DNA from: an uncultured Pseudomonadota bacterium
Lineage (GTDB): Bacteria; Myxococcota_A; UBA796; GCA-2862545
NCBI GenBank assembly: GCA_903861005.1
Contig: CAIOSP010000056.1
Location: forward strand, 1 to 36,298
DNA length: 36,298 nucleotides
Reading direction: 5' to 3'
A program made the translations under genes and the position numbers. The notes beneath the pieces are model-generated. The model saw nothing but the letters and a program-made list of their open reading frames with translations. It did no database searches and was not told the origin of the DNA. This document shows positions 1 through 10,474 of the stretch, piece after piece. The first letter of the stretch is position 1. Each line of letters begins with the position of its first letter.

Positions 1-195
1 CGACAGGCAGCTACGACGGGTTGACCGCGAAGGCGTAGGTGCGCGCGCGGGTCGGCGAGCGGGTTTGCGGTCCCGGTCGGCGCGGAGCGGAAGGGCTCGA
101 CAGGTCGGTGAGCCGGGGGTGCAGAAGGGGATCGCGGTCGCCAACTGGCTGTGGTAGAGCTTCGGAAGCGCGGGGGAGGATTTTGAACAGCCTGT
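1..195 (+). mobile_element. IS91-like 3'-end repeat, copy 1 (cut by window edge)
   Basis: This non-coding stretch matches about 4920-5378 and 6400-6790 over most of its length. Shared blocks include the CGACAGGCAGCTACG-type start, GTGACCGCGAAGG, the GTGGTAGA box at 151-158 and a small hairpin, GCTTC-G-GAAGC, at 159-169. The similarity stops just after GCCTGT at 190-195, where the lipoprotein gene takes over. The left part lies outside the window. Assignment to an IS91-like element comes from the longer copies, which carry a transposase C-terminal remnant. Repeat status is seen directly; family assignment is inference. Confidence 0.6.
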
Positions 196-710
196 CGTGT
201 GGCCTGGGGGCTCGGTCATTGACCGTATTCCTGCTGGCTTGCGGAGTCCGGGGACCTGACGACGGCGATTGCCTAGCGGTGATGGACAGTGATTTGCGGC
301 CTTTTGCGGCCACCCTCAATAATCGCGTGTGCGAGGCTTGCGATGCTCATCCGTTCGCATGGCCTCGCGGACTGCGGCGTATGCCGGACGGTACCATGTA
401 CGCTTGGCTTTCGGACAGTTCGGGTGGATACAATACAAGTTTCTACGCGGCAGACGGTCGTCAGGTTGCCTACCGAGCGTGTGGCGATGCGGGCGTGCCA
501 ATACCGCCCGAATGTCGGGCGCCTGGGGACACAGCGGAGGAGACGTTTTGTGCCTGGAAGGGCCTAGACCTTCGCGCCGCCGTTGTGACCTGCGAAGACC
601 GATCCGCATGCGACGTCGAACCCGCCAGCGGAACGCTCACCCTTCCCGATAGTTGCGGTCTGGCGCAGTTTTTCAACTCGGACGTTCCGTCATCGTGTCT
701 GGCGCCGTAA
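183..710 (+). CDS. Small cysteine-rich lipoprotein, function unknown
   Basis: Not recognised. With the TTG start at 183 the protein is 175 residues and begins with a short hydrophobic segment ending in a lipobox (FLLAC, Cys20), so it is probably a lipidated envelope protein. The mature part is rich in cysteine (paired CEAC, CEDRSAC and several singles) and has no domain I recognise. A longer frame opens at 39, but its first 48 codons lie in the repeat and read as Arg/Gly noise. The Shine-Dalgarno-like GGAGGA (175-180) and the TTG both lie inside the right end of the repeat, so the element may supply the translation start. The GGAGGA-to-TTG spacing is short (2 nt), which weakens this start. 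Confidence 0.5.
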   Translation: MNSLSCGLGARSLTVFLLACGVRGPDDGDCLAVMDSDLRPFAATLNNRVCEACDAHPFAWPRGLRRMPDGTMYAWLSDSSGGYNTSFYAADGRQVAYRACGDAGVPIPPECRAPGDTAEETFCAWKGLDLRAAVVTCEDRSACDVEPASGTLTLPDSCGLAQFFNSDVPSSCLAP

Positions 711-953
711 AGCGCCCCAACCTAAGATGACGCTATCAAGCGTAGAGGTTCGTCGGGATGCCCAGCCGAGTGACTTGGCTTCCCATCGGATCGGCCTCCT
801 GATCCGTATTCGACGTCGGGAGGCGGTCGGAGTCACCAGTCCGTTCGTCGGGCCGGACTCCGACAGCGCGGGCACGGTGGCCAAGTTGAGGCCTGACCTT
901 GCCCCCAAGTGCCGGACCGTCGGGTAGGTTCGACCCCTCTCGGCCGCGAAGCC

Positions 954-2009
954 TCATCCCGAGCGGCGACCACCACCCGTACGACTCTCCTCCACAGATG
1001 GAGTGACGTGGTGGTTGGCGACGGTCGGCGGCAGCGTGTGGCCGCGCGCCTGCAGATCGAGCGCATGGGGATGCCGGGCGTAGTGCTCGCGAAGGATTCG
1101 GCAGAACGCCAGCTTCTCGGCGTCGCCCACGGCGCCCGAGGCCGGCAGCGCGGCGACGAGGCTGCGCAGGAGCTCGTTCTGCGGCTTCGGCATCGCCGGC
1201 TCCCAGGACGCGAGCAGCGCGCGATCGACGACCGCCGGCAGCGATCCGAGGATGCCGAGATCGTTCTGATCGTGGACGAGCAGCCCGCTCGTCGTACCGC
1301 GATCGAGCGTCAGCACCTGGAAGAGGTAGACCGTGTGGTAGGCGCGCTGCGCTGCGGCCTCCTCTGGCGACGCCGGCTTCGCCGTCGCCAGCTTGTCGCG
1401 GAGGATGTCGCCGTACGCGTCGATCATGACCTCGCCGAACCGCCGCGGGAGCTCGTCGCCTTCCGCACGGAATTGCTCGAGGTAGAAGTGCGCGACGCCG
1501 CGATGCCGGCCCAGGGCCGGGATGCCGAAGTAGCGGTCGCCCTGCGCGATGCCTTCGTCGAGGTGGGCGCCGGATGCCGCCTTCAACGCCGCGAGGAAGC
1601 GGCTGGTGTCGGCATCGTCGGGCATCGATGGGTTGAGGTCGGCCATCAAGCGCCAGTAGCCGCCCCCCACCTTCATCTCGGTCCAGCTGATGTGGAGGTG
1701 CAGCGACGGCGCGCGCGGGTGCGCGGGGTGCACGATCGAGGACAGCGCGCTCGCCGAGCCGAGCGGTCGCTCCGGCCGATCGTCGTAGTGAACGTGCGAG
1801 ACGTTGAGCGAGGCGCGGTTGAACCGCTCCCCGCCGACGTACGTGAGGCGCGTGCCGCCACCGTGGCGACCGTCGTCGCGCTGCCAGCTGAACGGCTCAA
1901 AGCGACCCGGGTCGGCCCCGTCGTTCAGACGACGCAAGAGCTGGGTCTGAAGCGCCTGAATGAGGGAGAAGGCGGCCTGTGCGCGAAGGGAGCTTGAGAA
2001 CGTGGTCAT
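954..2009 (-). CDS. hemF: Coproporphyrinogen III oxidase-like protein (aerobic, HemF family)
   Basis: HemF oxidatively decarboxylates coproporphyrinogen III to protoporphyrinogen IX in haem synthesis, using oxygen. The 351-residue product shows the family pattern in order. SWQRDDGRHGGGTR (about 41-54) corresponds to the Gly-rich N-terminal motif. Next comes ASLNVSHVH (about 66-74), then a VHP segment and a HISWTEMKVGGGYWRLMADLNPS-like strand (about 106-128) aligning with the FGGG-DLTP region. A later GRHRGVAHFYLEQF corresponds to the HRGIGGLFYD motif. It is longer than typical HemF (about 300 residues) because of a C-terminal tail rich in His, Ser and Gly. Several family positions are diverged, so it could be a paralogue rather than the main enzyme. 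No other haem gene is nearby. The start is ATG 2009. Confidence 0.75.
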   Translation of the reverse strand: MTTFSSSLRAQAAFSLIQALQTQLLRRLNDGADPGRFEPFSWQRDDGRHGGGTRLTYVGGERFNRASLNVSHVHYDDRPERPLGSASALSSIVHPAHPRAPSLHLHISWTEMKVGGGYWRLMADLNPSMPDDADTSRFLAALKAASGAHLDEGIAQGDRYFGIPALGRHRGVAHFYLEQFRAEGDELPRRFGEVMIDAYGDILRDKLATAKPASPEEAAAQRAYHTVYLFQVLTLDRGTTSGLLVHDQNDLGILGSLPAVVDRALLASWEPAMPKPQNELLRSLVAALPASGAVGDAEKLAFCRILREHYARHPHALDLQARGHTLPPTVANHHVTPSVEESRTGGGRRSG

Positions 2010-2071
2010 CGCGGCATCTTAGACGGTCTGGTCGCGCGCGTAAAGGCTGGGCCGCGGCGACGGGACTCAGG

Positions 2072-2109
2072 GGTTTACACGGCTACCGGGACACTCTCGG
2101 TTTACACGG
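2072..2109. repeat. Direct repeat GGTTTACACGG x2, possible IS end remnant
   Basis: An 11-bp sequence occurs twice at 2072-2082 and 2099-2109, 27 bp apart. On the minus strand the block starts TGTCAGACGGCCC and carries CCGTGTAAACC twice. Repeated internal boxes after a TGT terminus are typical of IS21-family ends, and an IS630 fragment lies next to it. No IS21 gene is present, so this is at most a solo end. The repeat is seen directly; the IS21 link is a guess. Confidence 0.35.
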
Positions 2110-2129
2110 GCCGTCTGACAGACTCGCGC

Positions 2130-2405
2130 TCACGGTCGCGTCACGAGCCAGAACACGTCCCCCGTCGCGGGACGGACGAGCGCGTAGAGGTACAACCACT
2201 GTGAGCGCGGCTTGTGATCGCCGACGCGATGGTACTCGCGAGGCACCCACACGCGCCGGAAGATCGGCTTCAGGCTCATGCGCGCTTCGTCTTGCGCCCA
2301 GGTCTCCACGCGCGCGTTGGGGTGGTCTCCTTGGATCTGGTTGACGGCGTCTACGAGGCTCTCATTGTTTGAAGGCTTCCTGCTCCTCGTTGCCGGCGGT
2401 CGCAT
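2130..2405 (-). pseudogene. IS630-family transposase fragment
   Basis: This 91-residue frame contains ETWAQDEARMSLKPIFRRVW, the first catalytic-Asp segment of the IS630/Tc1 DDE domain (the D of QDE). It continues with the WLYLYALVRPATGDVFWL strand that normally leads to the second Asp. The N-terminal helix-turn-helix region and the downstream D and E residues are absent: the frame ends right after FWLVTRP. A full IS630 transposase is around 340 residues, so this is a decayed internal piece and cannot transpose. No matching terminal repeats or TA duplication were found. Confidence 0.7.
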
Positions 2406-2563
2406 GACGCGGGCGAGGAACCCTCAGGCTGACCTTGGCACCCGGGTGTCACCCACCTCGTGGCACGGGACCTTCTACGTAGACCTACGGATGTCGCCGC
2501 CGTTGAAGTCGGAGCGCAATCGGGTGTAGCGGTCTAGTCGATCTGGAGCGCGCGGAGGGGCGT

Positions 2564-3538
2564 ATGAACGTGGGCGGCGGGTGGCAGGTCGTAGGCGGAA
2601 GGTTCGTCCTGTTGCTGATCTTGGCTGGGAGCGCGCCACGGTCCGCCGACGCCGCAGGCCGGACATCGATGAAGGTTGTGTGCAAGGACCCGTCGACGGG
2701 CGAGCGCTGGCCGACCTTCGTGATCACGGATTGCCGCTCCAACTACGAGCAAACGGTCAAGACCGTCTCGACGCAGGCGTTTACGAGCATCGAGGTCCTC
2801 CGGCAGACGGTGGTCGCGGGTGGGGGGAGCACCGAGAAGGTGGAGAGCATGGCGAAGAAACTGGAGGGTTGGGTGAGCACCCAACGCGACCAGCTCGTCT
2901 CGTCGTGTGAGGCGCGAATGCATGATCCGTGCAATCGCCCTCGGCAAGCGCTCCTTGACCAAGCCGACGCGTCGATGCGGCAGACCTTCGCGTTGATTGC
3001 CCAGCAGAGCTTGGTGCTCTCCGATGCGCTCGATGAGGCGGATTCTCCGGTGTTTGGCAGCGCTGATGACGGAAGCGGCGGCCTGATTGCTCCGCCGGTC
3101 TCCCGCTCACGGGCCGACGCAGCTCACGCCCTCGTTGGGCTCCGCGCCGCCCGCGAACACGCGCAGGCCCAGCCGGTCGTCGTAGCTCACGCCCATGCCG
3201 CAGATCTGGTCCGCCGTGAGCGTGGCGACCTCGTCGGCGGTGAGGTTCTGCAGGTTGGCCCCCGCCAGCGACACGGAGCCGGTCGGCGTGGTGCCGATTG
3301 GCACACCGATCTCCCGGTTCCACGCGGGGAGAACGTGGAAGCTGACATACGCGCCGCTGTCGTTGACCACGATCGCGATCTCTCCGGGAGTGGCATCCAC
3401 CCAGGAGGTCGCGGACACCCGCTTCTTCCAGATCCACGACGCGCCGGTGATCGCACCCGCGGTGGTGTCGAGCCGGACGAACGGCAGCAGCGTGCCCTCG
3501 TTGGTGAACGACGCGTGCGAGCGCGTGATGACGTTTGA
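2564..3538 (+). CDS. Exported protein, function unknown; 3' part probably not real
   Basis: Not recognised. ATG 2564 has a good Shine-Dalgarno (GGAGGGG) and begins a clear signal peptide: hydrophobic FVLLLILAGSAP, cleavage near ADA-A around residue 31. The next 145 or so residues are a plausible secreted domain, largely helical, with Cys pairs (VVCKDP, TDCRSN, SSCEARMHDPC). From about 3105 onward the frame reads antisense through the neighbouring lipoprotein gene and turns into His/Arg/Ala-rich noise. The formal stop at 3538 gives 324 residues and a 432-nt convergent overlap. I infer that the original 3' end was lost and that only about 2564-3105 is native coding sequence. Confidence 0.5.
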   Translation: MNVGGGWQVVGGRFVLLLILAGSAPRSADAAGRTSMKVVCKDPSTGERWPTFVITDCRSNYEQTVKTVSTQAFTSIEVLRQTVVAGGGSTEKVESMAKKLEGWVSTQRDQLVSSCEARMHDPCNRPRQALLDQADASMRQTFALIAQQSLVLSDALDEADSPVFGSADDGSGGLIAPPVSRSRADAAHALVGLRAAREHAQAQPVVVAHAHAADLVRRERGDLVGGEVLQVGPRQRHGAGRRGADWHTDLPVPRGENVEADIRAAVVDHDRDLSGSGIHPGGRGHPLLPDPRRAGDRTRGGVEPDERQQRALVGERRVRARDDV

Positions 3539-4585
3539 GAAACTCAGCGCGGTCAGACTCTCATTGAGCCACCAAGTCAAGGTAGCCGGCCCTCGGCCGG
3601 TCGAGCCCGACATCTCCTGCTGGACGGCGTCGTTCCAAGCAAAGTCGAGGCCCCAGCCCCGCAGGCCTGCGAGGTGCAACTCGCTGAAGCCGGATACGTA
3701 GGTCGGCCCTGCGTCGGAAACCAGCACGTCGCCGCCATTCTGGTTCGTGCCGGTCTCGCTGACGTAGTCGGTGGGATCGAGCGCCTCATCGTAGATCACG
3801 TACATCGACGACAGGTTGAAGGCGGGTGTGGCGACGTCGGCTCCGTCGGAGGCCGGCCACGCGTCGACGAGGTCGTCGACCCGCAGGAGCGGTCCGTCGA
3901 CTCCTTGGTGAAGCTGCGCGCGCACGTGGACGTCGAAGGTGTAGTCGTGGCCCTGGAGCGCATCGATCACGCCGTCGCGGTCGATGTCGGGGTTGGCGTA
4001 TCGCAGCGAGAGGTCGTCGAACTCACCCAACCAGGCCGCCTCCGATACGGAGAGGCCAAGCGCCAATCTCAGCGTCGTGAAGTCAACACCGGCCGTGGCG
4101 ACCCCGCCCGCCAGGGTGACGGCGCCCAGGTCGAGCGTCGTCGCTCCGCGCGCGGGGAGGGAGTCCAGCGTGGACGAACGGAAGATCGCGACGACCATGT
4201 CGACACCGACGGCGGTGCCATCCACGAACACCAACACGTACGGCCGACCCGGTGCGAGCTCGAGGTGGAAGCTTCCGTCTGCGCCGACCTCGGCGATGCT
4301 CCGCTCCGGGCGGCTGGTCTGCGGATCGACGGCCATCACATGCGTGACGGTGGTGCCGGCGTCGACGCCGAGGCGAAGCGACGCTGCGGTCGGGACGCGG
4401 CCCTGCACGACGAATGCGGCGCCTGCTGGCGCGTCGGTGTCAACCGGCTCGTCGTTGACCGGATCGGTGTCCACGGTCTCCGAGTCGCCGACGCCAGCAG
4501 TGGTGTCGCCCGGCGCGTCGGGAGAAGGGGCGGAGCAGGCGGCGAGGCCGGAACAGACGAGGAAGGCCGGACAGAAGCGACGCAT
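3107..4585 (-). CDS. Large lipoprotein with calcium-loop-like segment, function unknown
   Basis: Not assigned to a known family. From ATG 4585 the product is 492 residues, with a lipoprotein signal (lipobox GLAAC) and a long Asp/Thr/Pro-rich linker typical of myxobacterial surface lipoproteins. Then follow beta-rich regions: one resembles a carboxypeptidase-regulatory-like fold (DGSFHLELAPGRPYVLVF), and an acidic NPDIDRDGVIDALQGHD loop resembles dockerin or thrombospondin-3 calcium sites. Start choice: a GTG 15 nt upstream (4600) is in frame, but AGGA sits about 9 nt before ATG 4585. It is probably anchored in the outer membrane. It converges with the exported-protein gene at 2564. Confidence 0.75.
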   Translation of the reverse strand: MRRFCPAFLVCSGLAACSAPSPDAPGDTTAGVGDSETVDTDPVNDEPVDTDAPAGAAFVVQGRVPTAASLRLGVDAGTTVTHVMAVDPQTSRPERSIAEVGADGSFHLELAPGRPYVLVFVDGTAVGVDMVVAIFRSSTLDSLPARGATTLDLGAVTLAGGVATAGVDFTTLRLALGLSVSEAAWLGEFDDLSLRYANPDIDRDGVIDALQGHDYTFDVHVRAQLHQGVDGPLLRVDDLVDAWPASDGADVATPAFNLSSMYVIYDEALDPTDYVSETGTNQNGGDVLVSDAGPTYVSGFSELHLAGLRGWGLDFAWNDAVQQEMSGSTGRGPATLTWWLNESLTALSFSNVITRSHASFTNEGTLLPFVRLDTTAGAITGASWIWKKRVSATSWVDATPGEIAIVVNDSGAYVSFHVLPAWNREIGVPIGTTPTGSVSLAGANLQNLTADEVATLTADQICGMGVSYDDRLGLRVFAGGAEPNEGVSCVGP

Positions 4586-4711
4586 GGGCGAAATCCTCAC
4601 GAAAATTCCTATCGTTCCCCTTCCGTGTCAACAAGGGTGAGACACCAGCCCCACCGATAAGTACTGTGCAGGGCGTCGCGGCAGTTCACCGGGACCCCGT
4701 CCGAAAAGCCG

Positions 4712-5002
4712 TTGCCGAAGCCGACCCCGGATCCCGAGGTGGCGGACGTGGCGCGCCGCCGATCGTTCACCGCCAAGTACAAACTCCGGGTCCTGCGTGA
4801 GCTCGACGCCGCGACCGAGGCTGGCCAGGCCGGCGAGTTGCCGCGCCGGGAAGGGCTGTACACGTCGCACGTCACCGACTGGCGGCGGAAGCGTGAAGCG
4901 CGACGTCGCGCGGACGTGCCCGAGGTGTACGTGGACCGCCCGCGGCGGCGCTGGATCGCCTGGGGTGAGCTGATCCTGCGGGTGCTCTTCCAGCCGGCTT
5001 GA
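4712..5002 (+). pseudogene. Chimera: IS3-family OrfA fragment joined to IS91-like transposase tail
   Basis: The first 60-65 residues are an IS3-type OrfA N-terminus with its helix-turn-helix: RRRSFTAKYKLRVLRELDA, then LPRREGLYTSHVTDWRRKRE. After KREARR the match ends, and the frame continues as RPRRRWIAWGELILRVLFQ and then a stop. This resembles the W.ELI.RVF segment that precedes the CPxCGG zinc ribbon in IS91-family transposases. That ribbon (TCPGCGG) is found about 30 nt further on in another frame. The open frame is therefore a junction of two dead transposase pieces. OrfA identity is good; the IS91 part is inferred from motif order. Confidence 0.6.
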
Positions 5003-5378
5003 AGCAAGACTCGCAGACCTGCCCCGGCTGCGGCGGCTGAATGCGGCAAGCGGCGACGTGCTGCGCTGGCTGGACGACGAGCGCGTCCTTCCGACCGGGC
5101 TGGCCCGGGGCGGCCTGGTTCTGATCGGGGCGCGGGCGCGCCGAGACCTACAGGCGACATCGTCGGTTCGGTGACGGGGCGAGGCGGCGCGGACATCGAC
5201 AGCCAGCTACGGCGCGGTGACCGCGAAGGTGCAGGTGCGCGCACGGGTTTGCGTTACCGGTCGGCGTGTCGCGCAAGGGCTCGACAGGTCAGCGAGCCTG
5301 GGATGCAGCAGGGGATCGCGCTCGCCGACTGGCTGTGGTCGAGCTTCGGAAGCGGGTGGAGGAGCTTGAACTGCCTGT
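4920..5378 (+). mobile_element. IS91-like 3'-end repeat, copy 2 (5'-truncated)
   Basis: The left end lies inside the IS3 OrfA remnant. The copy includes a frame-shifted transposase tail (WGELILRVLFQ, then TCPGCGG followed by a TGA where copy 3 has TGG), a stretch encoding DVLRWLDDER in copy 3's frame, and the non-coding block shared with copies 1 and 3. It ends with the GTGGTCGA box, hairpin GCTTC-G-GAAGC (5343-5353) and GCCTGT (5373-5378). Relative to copy 3 it has a deletion of about 22 nt near 5050 and a small insertion near 5090, so the copies diverged long ago. Confidence 0.6.
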
Positions 5379-5433
5379 GCTCGTGGTGGTCTCGAGGGGC
5401 ATGGGGGTTAGTAACGCCGCCCCCGGACGACGT

Positions 5434-6075
5434 ATGCCCTCCCTTCGCCTCCTCGTGGTCGGTGCCTCCCAGGGCACCGGTGCGCTGACTGTCTCGGCCG
5501 CCCTGGCGCGCGGGCACCAGGTCACCGCCTTCTCGCGCAGCCCGCAGAAGCTCACGATCGAGCACGCGTCCCTCACGCGGCGAGCGGGGAGCTTTCACGA
5601 TGCCGCCGCCGTGGATGCCGCGGTGGTGGGGCACGACGCCGTCATCATCACCGCCCATTCGTCGCTCGCGGGGTTCAAGGAGAACCCGACCTACGTCTCG
5701 TCGGGCATCGCGCTCGTGATCGAGGCGATGAATCGCCACCGGGTGCCGCGGTTGGTCGTGGTCAGCGCGCTCGGGTCAGGTGAGAGCCGCGTGCTGCTTG
5801 GCTGGTTCATCCGGACGATGCTGAAGGACGGTCTCCTCAAGCTGCCGTCGCAGGATCACGAGCGGAAGGAGGCCCTGACGCGGGCGTCCGACCTGGAGTG
5901 GGTCATCGCGCGTCCGGGTCGCCTCACGAATGGGCCGGCGCGCGGCCGCTACGTCAAACGGGCGGAGATATCTCCGGTCCCCGGCTCGATCTCCCGGGCG
6001 GACTTGGCGGATTTCTTGGTCACCGCCGCGGACTCGGACGCCTGGGTGGGCAAGGCCGTGCAGATCGGCGGATGA
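5434..6075 (+). CDS. NAD(P)-binding atypical SDR (NmrA/flavin-reductase-like)
   Basis: The product is a 213-residue single-domain Rossmann protein. The dinucleotide motif VVGASQGTG (residues 8-16) follows the first strand. Later come AAVVGHDAVIITAH (loss of the usual catalytic Tyr-Lys pair is typical of atypical SDRs), RLVVVSALGSG, and a C-terminal WVIARPGRLTNGP segment common to the YwnB/BLVRB-like group. Substrate unknown. ATG 5434 starts directly at the first strand. An in-frame ATG at 5401 with GAGG just upstream would add 11 residues, and the frame formally opens at 5266 inside the repeat. Its stop overlaps the next start (ATGA), so the two are translationally coupled. Confidence 0.75.
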   Translation: MPSLRLLVVGASQGTGALTVSAALARGHQVTAFSRSPQKLTIEHASLTRRAGSFHDAAAVDAAVVGHDAVIITAHSSLAGFKENPTYVSSGIALVIEAMNRHRVPRLVVVSALGSGESRVLLGWFIRTMLKDGLLKLPSQDHERKEALTRASDLEWVIARPGRLTNGPARGRYVKRAEISPVPGSISRADLADFLVTAADSDAWVGKAVQIGG

Positions 6076-6620
6076 GCGCAGAGGTCGGCGAGCGGCTGCG
6101 GGTGTTGCAGGCGGAGCTGCGCGGGTGTGCAAGGTGCCCCGCGATGACCGGGCCGCCCATCGTCGGGCGACCGACCCTGAGCCGCGTCTACCTCGTCGGG
6201 CAGGCCCCTGGACCGCGGGAGGGTGCGTTGGGGCGGCCGTTCGGGTGGACCGCGGGGCGCACGCTCTTCCAGTGGACGGGCTCGGTCGGGCTCGACGAGG
6301 AGTCGTTCCGCTCGTCGGTGTTCATCGCCGCCGTGTGTCGGTGCTTCCCGGGGACGGCGCCGAGCACCGGGGGCAAGGCGAAGGGCGACCGCGTGCCCGC
6401 GCCCGCAGACCTGCCCGGGCTGCGGCGGCTGGATGCGGCAAGTGGCGTTGGTTCTCGCGGCGAGCGGCGACGTGCTGCGCTGGCTGGACGACGAGCGCGC
6501 TGCCCAGGGCGGCCTGGTTCTGCTCGGGGCACGGGCGCACGGAGACCCACAGGCGACGTCGTCGGTTCGGTGACGGGGCGGGGCGTGGGAGGACATCGAC
6601 AGGCAGCTACGGCGCGGTGA
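6072..6620 (+). pseudogene. Uracil-DNA glycosylase (family 4/5-like), truncated by repeat
   Basis: Residues 1-112 are a convincing start of an iron-sulfur uracil-DNA glycosylase. CARC (Cys19, Cys22) supplies cluster ligands, YLVGQAPGPREGALGRPF (40-57) is the uracil-binding/catalytic motif 1, and IAAVCRCFPG follows with a further cysteine before GDRVPAP. At about 6400 the sequence enters repeat copy 3, and the frame continues as Arg/Gly noise to 6620. Motif 2 (the H-P-S/A loop) and the last cluster cysteine are missing, so the enzyme should be inactive. The start ATG overlaps the stop of the SDR gene. The damage is best explained by insertion of the repeat or recombination at it. Confidence 0.75.
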
Positions 6621-6790
6621 CCGCGAAGGCGGAGGTGCGCGCGCGGGTTGGCGAGCGGGCGGGGCGCGGTCCGGTCGGCTGCGTCGCGGCGCTCGACGCG
6701 CGCGTGAGTCGGGCGCGCAGAAGAGGAGCGCGGGTGCGGACGGGCTGTGGTAGACCTTCGGAAGCGTGGGGAGGGGCTTGAAATGCCTGT
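6400..6790 (+). mobile_element. IS91-like 3'-end repeat, copy 3 (5'-truncated)
   Basis: It begins inside the glycosylase gene at CGCAGACCTGCCC and carries the best-preserved transposase tail: TCPGCGGWMRQVALVL, then DVLRWLDDERAA, ending at a TGA at 6571-6573. The CPxCGG ribbon followed by a short tail is how IS91-family transposases end. The shared non-coding block follows, then the GTGGTAGA box (6747-6754), hairpin CTTC-G-GAAG (6756-6764) and GCCTGT (6785-6790). Similarity to copies 1 and 2 ends there, and an EAL-domain fragment starts about 30 nt later. Confidence 0.6.
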
Positions 6791-6818
6791 GGTCGTCGGA
6801 CACTCCCGTTTTGTCTGG

Positions 6819-6989
6819 TGCGTCCAGTCGATCCTGGCGATGAGCCGGGGCTTGGGCATCGAGGTGGTGGCCGAGGGCATCGAGACGGCCGACGCGCTGC
6901 GCACGCGCGGCCGCACCAAGTACCAGGGCTACCTGTTCAGCCGCCCCATCCCGAACAAGGACTACGAGAGCCTGCTGCACCAGAGCTGA
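6819..6989 (+). pseudogene. EAL-domain (c-di-GMP phosphodiesterase) C-terminal fragment
   Basis: About 56 residues match the end of an EAL domain: the helix SILAMSRGLGIEVVAEGIET with the conserved E of VVAEGIET, then KYQGYLFSRPIP with the Q of the YQGYLFSRP motif, and a normal-looking C-terminus (DYESLLHQS). Everything upstream, including the EAL signature and the DDFGTG loop, is missing: the sequence before it is repeat copy 3. There is no start codon or ribosome-binding site suited to this piece. It is a relic of a phosphodiesterase gene, distinct from the intact REC-EAL gene at 25435. Confidence 0.75.
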
Positions 6990-7176
6990 CGGGCATGGCG
7001 CCGGGCGCAGGCGCCCTGGTGCTGGCGACGCGCTGCGCTGCCTGGACGACCGGGGAGTCCTATGTCGACGGAGGGCGCGGAGGCGCATCCGACGGCGCGT
7101 CCAGGCCTGCGACGAGGCCGTGAGCGCGACGCCTGTGGCCCGCGCACGTTAACGACCGCGCCACGGTAGGAGCCGC

Positions 7177-8430: not shown

Positions 8431-8687
8431 GTTCACTCCAGGTCGCGCCGTCTATCCGGATTACGGCGCTCCGGAGACGGGCGCGGCAAGTTGGCGGGGC
8501 TGTCGCGCGACGCACCGAGCGCGGAGCTTGGGCGCAGACCCGGTGCGGACTCGCGGCGATCGGGTCAAGAGCGCGCCCCGCCAAGGTCGCGGCGGATCCC
8601 TTCTCGACCGCAGCGAAGAAGTCTGGCATCCTGCAAACCACTCGCAGCCCGCGACGCTCGGGAACCCCACACTCTCAGGACCGAGCC

Positions 8688-9470
8688 ATGTCAAACCGCC
8701 CGCACACCTCCACCGCCGCGGCATGCAGCTCGCCCCTGCGTCCAGCTCTCCCCGCGCTCCTCGCCGCCCTGCACGGATGCGCGCTCGCCGAACCGCCGAC
8801 TTGCACCCCAGAGGCTGACACGGCGTGCTTCGTCGGCGCGTTTCGATCGCTGCTCGGTCAGCCGATGGACAGCGTGGAGGTCTGCACGCCCGATCTACCG
8901 GACGTGCCATGCACCACAACCGGGCCGGACGGGACGTGGCGGCTCCCAGGCCTGCCGCGCGACACCGACGTCGTCGTCACCGCCTCGCACGAGGGCACGG
9001 TGGAGACCGTCTTCCCCCAGTCGACGACGTTGGATTGGTACGACTGGTACAAGGTGATGGTCCCGCTCTCGATCATGAACACCAACGCCTCCAATGTCGG
9101 CGCCACGCTCGACCCGGCGCGTGGGAACATCCTGTTCATCGTCTGGGAGGGCTTGAACCTCGACGGCGTGGACACCGCGCGCGTACCCGACGTCACGGTC
9201 CGCTCCCTCAGCGGCGAGGGCGCAGTGTTCTACTCCAGCTCGATCGGCCTCGCGTCCGCGAAGGCCGAGGCCACGACCTCCAACGGATCCGGCGGCGTGC
9301 TCAACCTCACGCCGGGCGTTCACGAGCTCGAGTTCACCGCGCCGGGCGGCCCATGCTCCGAGCCGATGTTCCACTGGTCCTACACAAGCCCGAACGTGAT
9401 CCCTGTGCCGGTGCTGGCCGGACACACGACCGCGATCGACGTGCTCTGTCCGACTCAGGACGGCGGCTGA
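8688..9470 (+). CDS. Lipoprotein with regulatory-like beta-sandwich domain
   Basis: The product is 260 residues. The N-terminus (Ser/Thr-rich, then PALPALLAALHGC) reads as a lipoprotein signal with lipobox LHGC. The next region resembles a carboxypeptidase-regulatory-like (Ig-type) domain: a start with ACFVGAF, then TTTGPDGTWRLPGLPRDTDVVVTA, the usual GxxxTDxxGxYxLxGLP pattern. The remainder (about 120-260) is beta-rich with no family I recognise. It is probably an outer-membrane-anchored surface protein. Its 3' end overlaps the convergent metallo-hydrolase gene by 16 nt. Confidence 0.7.
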   Translation: MSNRPHTSTAAACSSPLRPALPALLAALHGCALAEPPTCTPEADTACFVGAFRSLLGQPMDSVEVCTPDLPDVPCTTTGPDGTWRLPGLPRDTDVVVTASHEGTVETVFPQSTTLDWYDWYKVMVPLSIMNTNASNVGATLDPARGNILFIVWEGLNLDGVDTARVPDVTVRSLSGEGAVFYSSSIGLASAKAEATTSNGSGGVLNLTPGVHELEFTAPGGPCSEPMFHWSYTSPNVIPVPVLAGHTTAIDVLCPTQDGG

Positions 9471-10474
9471 AAGCGGAAGCGGGCCCCAAACCCGGGAAAG
9501 AGGTACCGCTCGCCCCCGGGCTCGGCGCGCAGCGTCTCGCGCAGCTCTGGGAGGTCCACCTTCACGCCCTCGCGAGGGGCCTCGTCCACCGTGCGGAAGA
9601 AGTTGTCCCAGTGGCAGAAGATCACGTGTCGCGGATCGATGTGATCGAGGACCGACGGCGCTCCAAGCGCGCGGAAGTTGGCCGTGTCCATCGCGAGCAG
9701 CGCGACGTCGACACGACGCTCGTCGAGGATGTGCTTGGGCGCCACGCCTGAGGGGGGGCCGGTGCTGGACGTCTCCACGAACACCCGGTGCGCGATGGCC
9801 CCGTCGGCGTCGAGGAGGTCCACGAGCCACGCGGTGGTGTGCCCCTCTTGGTAGTGCGACGCGCGTACGGGCGGCTCGGTCCGGTCCTCGGTCAACACGT
9901 GGCGGAACAAGTGCACGCCGGGGATGTTGCACGGGTGTCCCGAGCGGATCGGCAGCACGCGGATCCGGCCGTCCGCGAGCAGGATGGGCGCGCCGTCTTC
10001 GGTGGGCGAAGCGAGTCGATCATCCACGAGCGCCCACGGACGCTCGAGGTGCAAGGGCGCGAAGATGTGGGCCACCGAGGCGTCGCCGCACAGCACCGCG
10101 TCGGCGTGCAAGTGAGGCACGACCACCGGAAGGTCGAGGCAATGGTCGTAGTGGCCGTGCCCGATCAGCACCGCGCGCACGTCTCCCATTCCCGCGACGA
10201 ACGGCGCTGAGACGCTGGGGTCCGGATGGGTCCGGCTAAACGCCACCCTAGGAAATCGGTCGCGGGTGAAGAAGGGATCGGTGAGCACGCCGAGCCCGCG
10301 CCAGCGGAAGACGAACGCCGCGACCCCGAAGAAGGACACGTCGAGCTCGTCCCCCTCGTCCGCGCCGAGTGGCCCCCAACCATCGAACGGGAACGTCGCG
10401 AGGGGCGCTCCGCAGGCACTGGCCGCCACGGCCGCTAAGCCCGAGACCAAGATCGCGCGACGACTCACGGACAC
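9455..10474 (-). CDS. Metallo-beta-lactamase-fold hydrolase, Tat/lipoprotein signal
   Basis: The fold resembles UlaG/NAPE-PLD-type metallo-hydrolases. After the signal come DVSFFGVAAFVFRW, VLTDPFFTRD (first strand pair), the metal motif HGHYDH, a SGHPCN segment with a further His, and EGHTTAWLV; a late HWDNFF may supply the last histidine. Lipid, sugar-phosphate or phosphodiester substrates are all possible. The N-terminus shows SRRAIL followed by a hydrophobic stretch and AASAC, so export by Tat and lipidation are both suggested. GTG 10474 is preferred (GGAGG 5 nt upstream, just before the twin Arg); the frame extends to 10528 but adds a non-signal stretch. Length about 339 residues. Confidence 0.75.
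   Translation of the reverse strand: MSVSRRAILVSGLAAVAASACGAPLATFPFDGWGPLGADEGDELDVSFFGVAAFVFRWRGLGVLTDPFFTRDRFPRVAFSRTHPDPSVSAPFVAGMGDVRAVLIGHGHYDHCLDLPVVVPHLHADAVLCGDASVAHIFAPLHLERPWALVDDRLASPTEDGAPILLADGRIRVLPIRSGHPCNIPGVHLFRHVLTEDRTEPPVRASHYQEGHTTAWLVDLLDADGAIAHRVFVETSSTGPPSGVAPKHILDERRVDVALLAMDTANFRALGAPSVLDHIDPRHVIFCHWDNFFRTVDEAPREGVKVDLPELRETLRAEPGGERYLFPGFGARFRFQPPS

Follow-up and report, generated by a model that had tools for sequence, protein, structure and literature searches.

One-ended transposition has been described for IS801, a member of the IS91 family, in Pseudomonas syringae (PMC3189936, PMC6354349). In the sections of the former source used here, right-end fragments of 229 to 679 nt account for 26.3% of the trapped IS801 insertions, upstream DNA is mobilized as well, one-ended products are judged by a left end lying at a target-like tetranucleotide, and natural fragments are mostly regarded as reorganizations (PMC3189936). 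The ISCR elements make up the second system for comparison (PMC13023784, PMC13393415, PMC12772301), and the excerpted account of ISCR28 describes gene capture between two successive oriIS ends (PMC12772301).

Here we describe a mostly dead family of what are, to judge from their sequences, IS91/ISCR-type rolling-circle elements encoding a predicted zinc-finger HUH transposase. Like IS801 as portrayed in those sections, the family has right-end fragments of varied length, a constant right end, an adjoining tetranucleotide, and mobilized pieces of neighboring genes. Unlike IS801, for which the same sections give GAAC, GGAC, CAAG, and CGAC, it has GCTC as that tetranucleotide, its left ends generally come without a matching one, and it is known from sequence and not from observed movement. 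It resembles the ISCR elements in that its top NCBIfam profile is ISCR clade Ia, and differs from them in staying under the full-length cutoff of that profile and in the dozens of decayed copies that a single genome carries. Since the behavior is known from IS801 and ISCR28, the truncation series represents a new family member showing known behavior; the new part, without placement among known systems, is a set of 14-nt inserts carried by the copies.

Results

The window, i.e., the whole stretch of 36,298 nt that was analyzed, is contig C56 read from its start and belongs to a genome of 5.81 Mb in 223 contigs. The original prediction had recognized in its first part three copies of an IS91-like element sharing their right end, and the alignment bore this out: the common DNA occupies positions 1 to 195, 4901 to 5378, and 6402 to 6790, all on the plus strand, with GCCTGT in each right end (190 to 195, 5373 to 5378, and 6785 to 6790). 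Copy 1 (1 to 195) is a right-end fragment 92% identical to the full-length reference over reference positions 2133 to 2329 and is directly followed by CGTG (196 to 199). Because contig C56 starts at base 1, the left limit of this copy is that of the assembly and not a biological end; contigs C30 and C31 likewise start within the same repeat, which makes the repeat the probable cause of the assembly break and leaves copy 1 uninformative on the biological left end. An apparently whole coproporphyrinogen III oxidase gene (954 to 2009, minus strand; PF01218, E = 4.5e-21) lies between copies 1 and 2.

Copy 2 (4901 to 5378, plus strand) is a 5'-truncated IS91/ISCR-like fragment extending from reference 1829 to the right end, which is adjoined by GCTC (5379 to 5382, plus strand); in the window this tetranucleotide follows copy 2 only, GGTC (6791 to 6794) standing directly after copy 3. 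The start of copy 2, formerly placed at about 4920 and inside an IS3 OrfA fragment, moved in the alignment to about 4901, and the IS3 assignment gained no support: the directly adjoining stretch on the left (4712 to 4900, plus strand) has no Pfam match and only a subthreshold NCBIfam match to IS66 TnpA (E = 0.0013), which leaves it a helix-turn-helix-like, transposase-type fragment of uncertain identity. Copy 3 (6402 to 6790, plus strand), also 5' truncated, runs from reference 1938 to the right end with 85% identity to the reference and, as had been proposed, cuts the 3' side of a uracil-DNA glycosylase superfamily gene (6072 to 6401, plus strand; PF03167, E = 5.9e-10, profile positions 4 to 61 of 141). 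Copies 2 and 3 enclose an apparently whole gene for an NAD(P)-binding protein (5434 to 6075, plus strand; PF13460, E = 2.7e-40).

To the right of copy 3 lies an EAL-domain gene piece without its 5' part (6821 to 7015, plus strand), 86% identical to C80:3793-3996 and matching PF00563 with an E value of 3.4e-7 and 30.3 bits, under the cutoff of 31.3. A longer EAL frame on C80 matches this piece, and in both places an element remnant then follows, in the window as a weak fourth remnant at 7024 to 7061 (plus strand; 84% identity over 38 bases, with 27 bases at 92.6%). Most of the first 8.6 kb of the window was not found in the genus mate, G001; from position 8633 to 9500 the window is 100% identical to G001:C63:8-875, near the start of that contig.

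A search with C28:17959-20299 as the reference gave 48 matches in the same genome, beyond chance, totaling 14,370 bases or 0.25% of the genome; the copies differ by 10 to 25% and are frame broken. Since the copy on C100 starts at reference 593 and that in G001 at 597, and since the DNA upstream is not the same in the two cases, we set the left end of the element at about 593 to 597, and its length is about 1.74 kb. The earlier guess that the parent gene was an IS91-family transposase proved right: Y2_Tnp (PF04986) was matched on C31 with an E value of 3.9e-27 and Zn_Tnp_IS91 (PF14319) on C100 with one of 2.6e-7, and the NCBIfam profiles ISCR_clade_Ia (E = 5.2e-42) and transpos_IS91 (E = 8.4e-16) both scored under their full-length cutoffs. 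The frames of C31 and C100 have the HUH (His-x-His) motif as LNLNVHFHV, and a tyrosine within ICRYVLRP is a candidate catalytic residue. The longest open frame read, on C31, has 327 codons from stop to stop and includes LNLNVHFHV; no intact transposase was found among the copies read. In the N-terminal zinc-finger region, the C28 and C100 copies (L063 and L117) have the same frame break near SCxGRAFWSC, where a GGTC-GTGCGC-GACC stretch resembles a second kind of hairpin insert. Directly to the right of the long C28 copy, C28:17790-17969 holds two more right-end-like tips, TTGAAATTCCTGTGC and TTTGAAATACCTGTGATC.

The two ends of the element fared very differently. The right end (reference 2325 or beyond) was reached by 20 of the 48 matches and the left end by 2 (Fisher p = 1.5e-5), in keeping with the prediction of one fixed and one variable end. 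Contig edges cut four matches on the left and three on the right, the latter being among the 28 without a right end. The constant flanking tetranucleotide expected at the right end turned out to be GCTC, which followed 27 of 32 right ends located with a right-end profile, the seeds of which all carried GCTC and thus biased the search toward GCTC-flanked matches. Seven contigs have at least two right ends each, 22 in total, and within each of these contigs all the ends point the same way; smaller remnants on C87 and C92 have the opposite orientation. The left-end fold was somewhat better than that of shuffled sequences (19 of 200 equally good), and the right-end fold was no more stable than its shuffles.

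At most left ends, those of copies 2 and 3 included, no target-like tetranucleotide was present. Judged as IS801 products are, by an intact right end plus a left end at such a tetranucleotide, copies 2 and 3 would not be counted as one-ended products, while the fragment at C87:15468-15899, which sits between two GCTC, would be. The idea that the window copies arose by an early stop of transposition consequently found no backing in the window itself, copy 1 ending at the contig edge and the other two having no such tetranucleotide on the left.

For 22 right ends, comprising 6 on C30, 3 in the window, and 13 others, we then searched the DNA that follows them on the right. Transfer of neighboring DNA, as originally proposed, gained support from gene pieces beside some of them that have relatives elsewhere. 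At 3 of the 22, a piece of at least 180 bp with a relative elsewhere in the genome or in the genus mate begins with the first base past the tetranucleotide: C30:3975-5047 (92% identical to C3), C30:408-661 (85% to C130), and C139 from 27288 downward (83% over 441 bp to G001). The first of these stops where the next right-end fragment starts, and its gene is not continued past either end of the piece in C30. GCTC is absent from the relatives at all three exact boundary points, and the donor DNA therefore did not end in GCTC. Two weaker cases have an exact start (C92:29127 and C92:30475) but only 71% identity or a length of only 42 bp, and three others are offset from the right end, by 10 bases at C30:5146, by 26 at window 6794 (the EAL piece), and by 75 at C142:688; at the remaining 14, nothing was counted.

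On C142, a 126-nt right-end unit comes directly after a gene piece 97% identical to C92. The idea that this unit had inserted cleanly into a gene was rejected, as no convincing frame came from joining the flanks and as the gene, by comparison with C92, does not continue in the right flank. An integron attC reading of the repeat rows was likewise set aside, on the ground that these right ends are those of an element that bears a transposase and has a parent of 1.74 kb. A separate repeat of about 90 to 100 bp, with copies 88 to 95% alike, occurs several times outside the element on C87 (L065; 9545 to 13692) and C142 (L073; 3766 to 4769).

The reading frame of the element is broken at about nine sites, in different copies, by the 14-nt insert GTCCTTCCGACCGG. 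Exact occurrences numbered 16 in the same genome and 6 in the genus mate, against none in either for the reversed control and 0 to 2 in each of 91 other relatives. All 16 lie in or beside the element family: 10 inside the 48 reference matches, 3 within 30 bases of one, 2 (on C37 and C147) beside other element matches, and 1 (on C179) known only from flanks like those of site D. The 12-base core occurred 18 times, i.e., in the exact set of 16 and at two places elsewhere (C2 and C68). Both filled and empty forms were seen for sites B, C, D, E, H, and I. For site A, three copies have the insert, and the empty form is taken from the copy alignment, as the unfilled matches fall at a different place in the element; F and G were recognized from their flanks only. 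In most cases, site C contains a related 14-mer, GCTCTTCCAGCCGG. In copy 2, GCTCTTCCAGCCGG occupies site C (4984 to 4997, plus strand), as filled and empty forms together with exact copies show, and breaks the frame after WGELILRV, and the copy comparison places GTCCTTCCGACCGG at site E (5085 to 5098, plus strand). The remnant WGELILRVLFQ had been taken for the C terminus of an IS91 transposase; the parent family was named correctly, and the remnant itself is a product of the 14-nt insertion.

At site D, seven copies showed no mismatch in 98 insert positions versus 31 in 189 flank positions (Fisher p = 1.2e-6), whereas at site E the inserts vary. A nearly unresolved tree of 18 copies required at least six changes at site D, four at site C, and three at site E, counts that are weak evidence because no branch is starred. 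The 14-mer GTCCTTCCGACCGG had no stable fold, no occurrence of it was found in the papers searched, and no form within two substitutions was present at 17 remote transposase-relative loci, one of which (L148) is from the genus mate.

Discussion

We consider it reasonably probable that IS91-style one-ended transposition with gene capture produced the truncation series, right-end fragments having been reinserted at or near an earlier GCTC. The right end, CCTGT followed by GCTC, would be the presumed oriIS side; with transposition starting there, right ends would be retained and left ends would differ from copy to copy. Reinsertion of right-end fragments, some of them together with part of a neighboring gene, at or beside the GCTC of earlier copies would build up rows in which right ends, all of one direction, take turns with gene pieces. 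We infer that many of the left ends were made by one-ended transposition and not by later deletion or recombination.

Ordinary decay, in which old full-length IS91-like insertions were later worn down by recombination and deletion with little one-ended transposition, would account for the many copies truncated at the right or at both ends and for their divergence and broken frames, and it is the verdict reached for most natural IS801 fragments in the cited sections (PMC3189936); we nevertheless hold it to be unlikely, as it predicts neither the excess of right ends (20 versus 2 of 48), nor the uniform orientation within contigs, nor pieces that start exactly past the tetranucleotide. That the short right-end pieces are MITE-like nonautonomous elements with two fixed ends, moved in trans, is highly improbable. 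In its favor, the 126-nt unit is identical on C87 and C142, a 129-bp unit is common to C87 and C147 at 94%, and the genus mate has related pieces; against it, the longer copies start at many different element positions, and what had looked like a shared left end at reference 2239 proved to be a subfamily difference.

The 14-nt inserts would be a separate process from truncation, acting on the same family. The site D comparison suggests recurrent insertion of GTCCTTCCGACCGG at the same site; the chief rival explanation for the identical inserts is that copies recombined over short tracts. Only tentatively, with more doubt than confidence, do we propose that about nine sites of one IS91-like family and, by exact matches, no other place in the genome received GTCCTTCCGACCGG as a blunt insertion, in one orientation or the other and with no duplication of the target, the identity at site D reflecting repeated insertion. 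The 14-mer may be a tiny mobile sequence homing into the transposon, a by-product of the strand transfer of the element, or a means of targeted inactivation. Very short, identical, inserted-looking sequences without a gene of their own recall the small dispersed repeats of cyanobacteria, reportedly dispersed and 21 to 27 nt long according to Elhai et al. in 2008; unlike these, the inserts here are 14 nt long and confined to one element family.

Because IS91 and ISCR elements move resistance and virulence genes, a genome such as this one, with its dozens of right ends and its displaced gene pieces, documents in nature how they capture DNA. If the 14-nt inserts were placed by a mechanism and not by descent, they would be, to our knowledge, among the smallest mobile sequences, and they would indicate that a rolling-circle transposon is subject to an unknown process of insertion or silencing.
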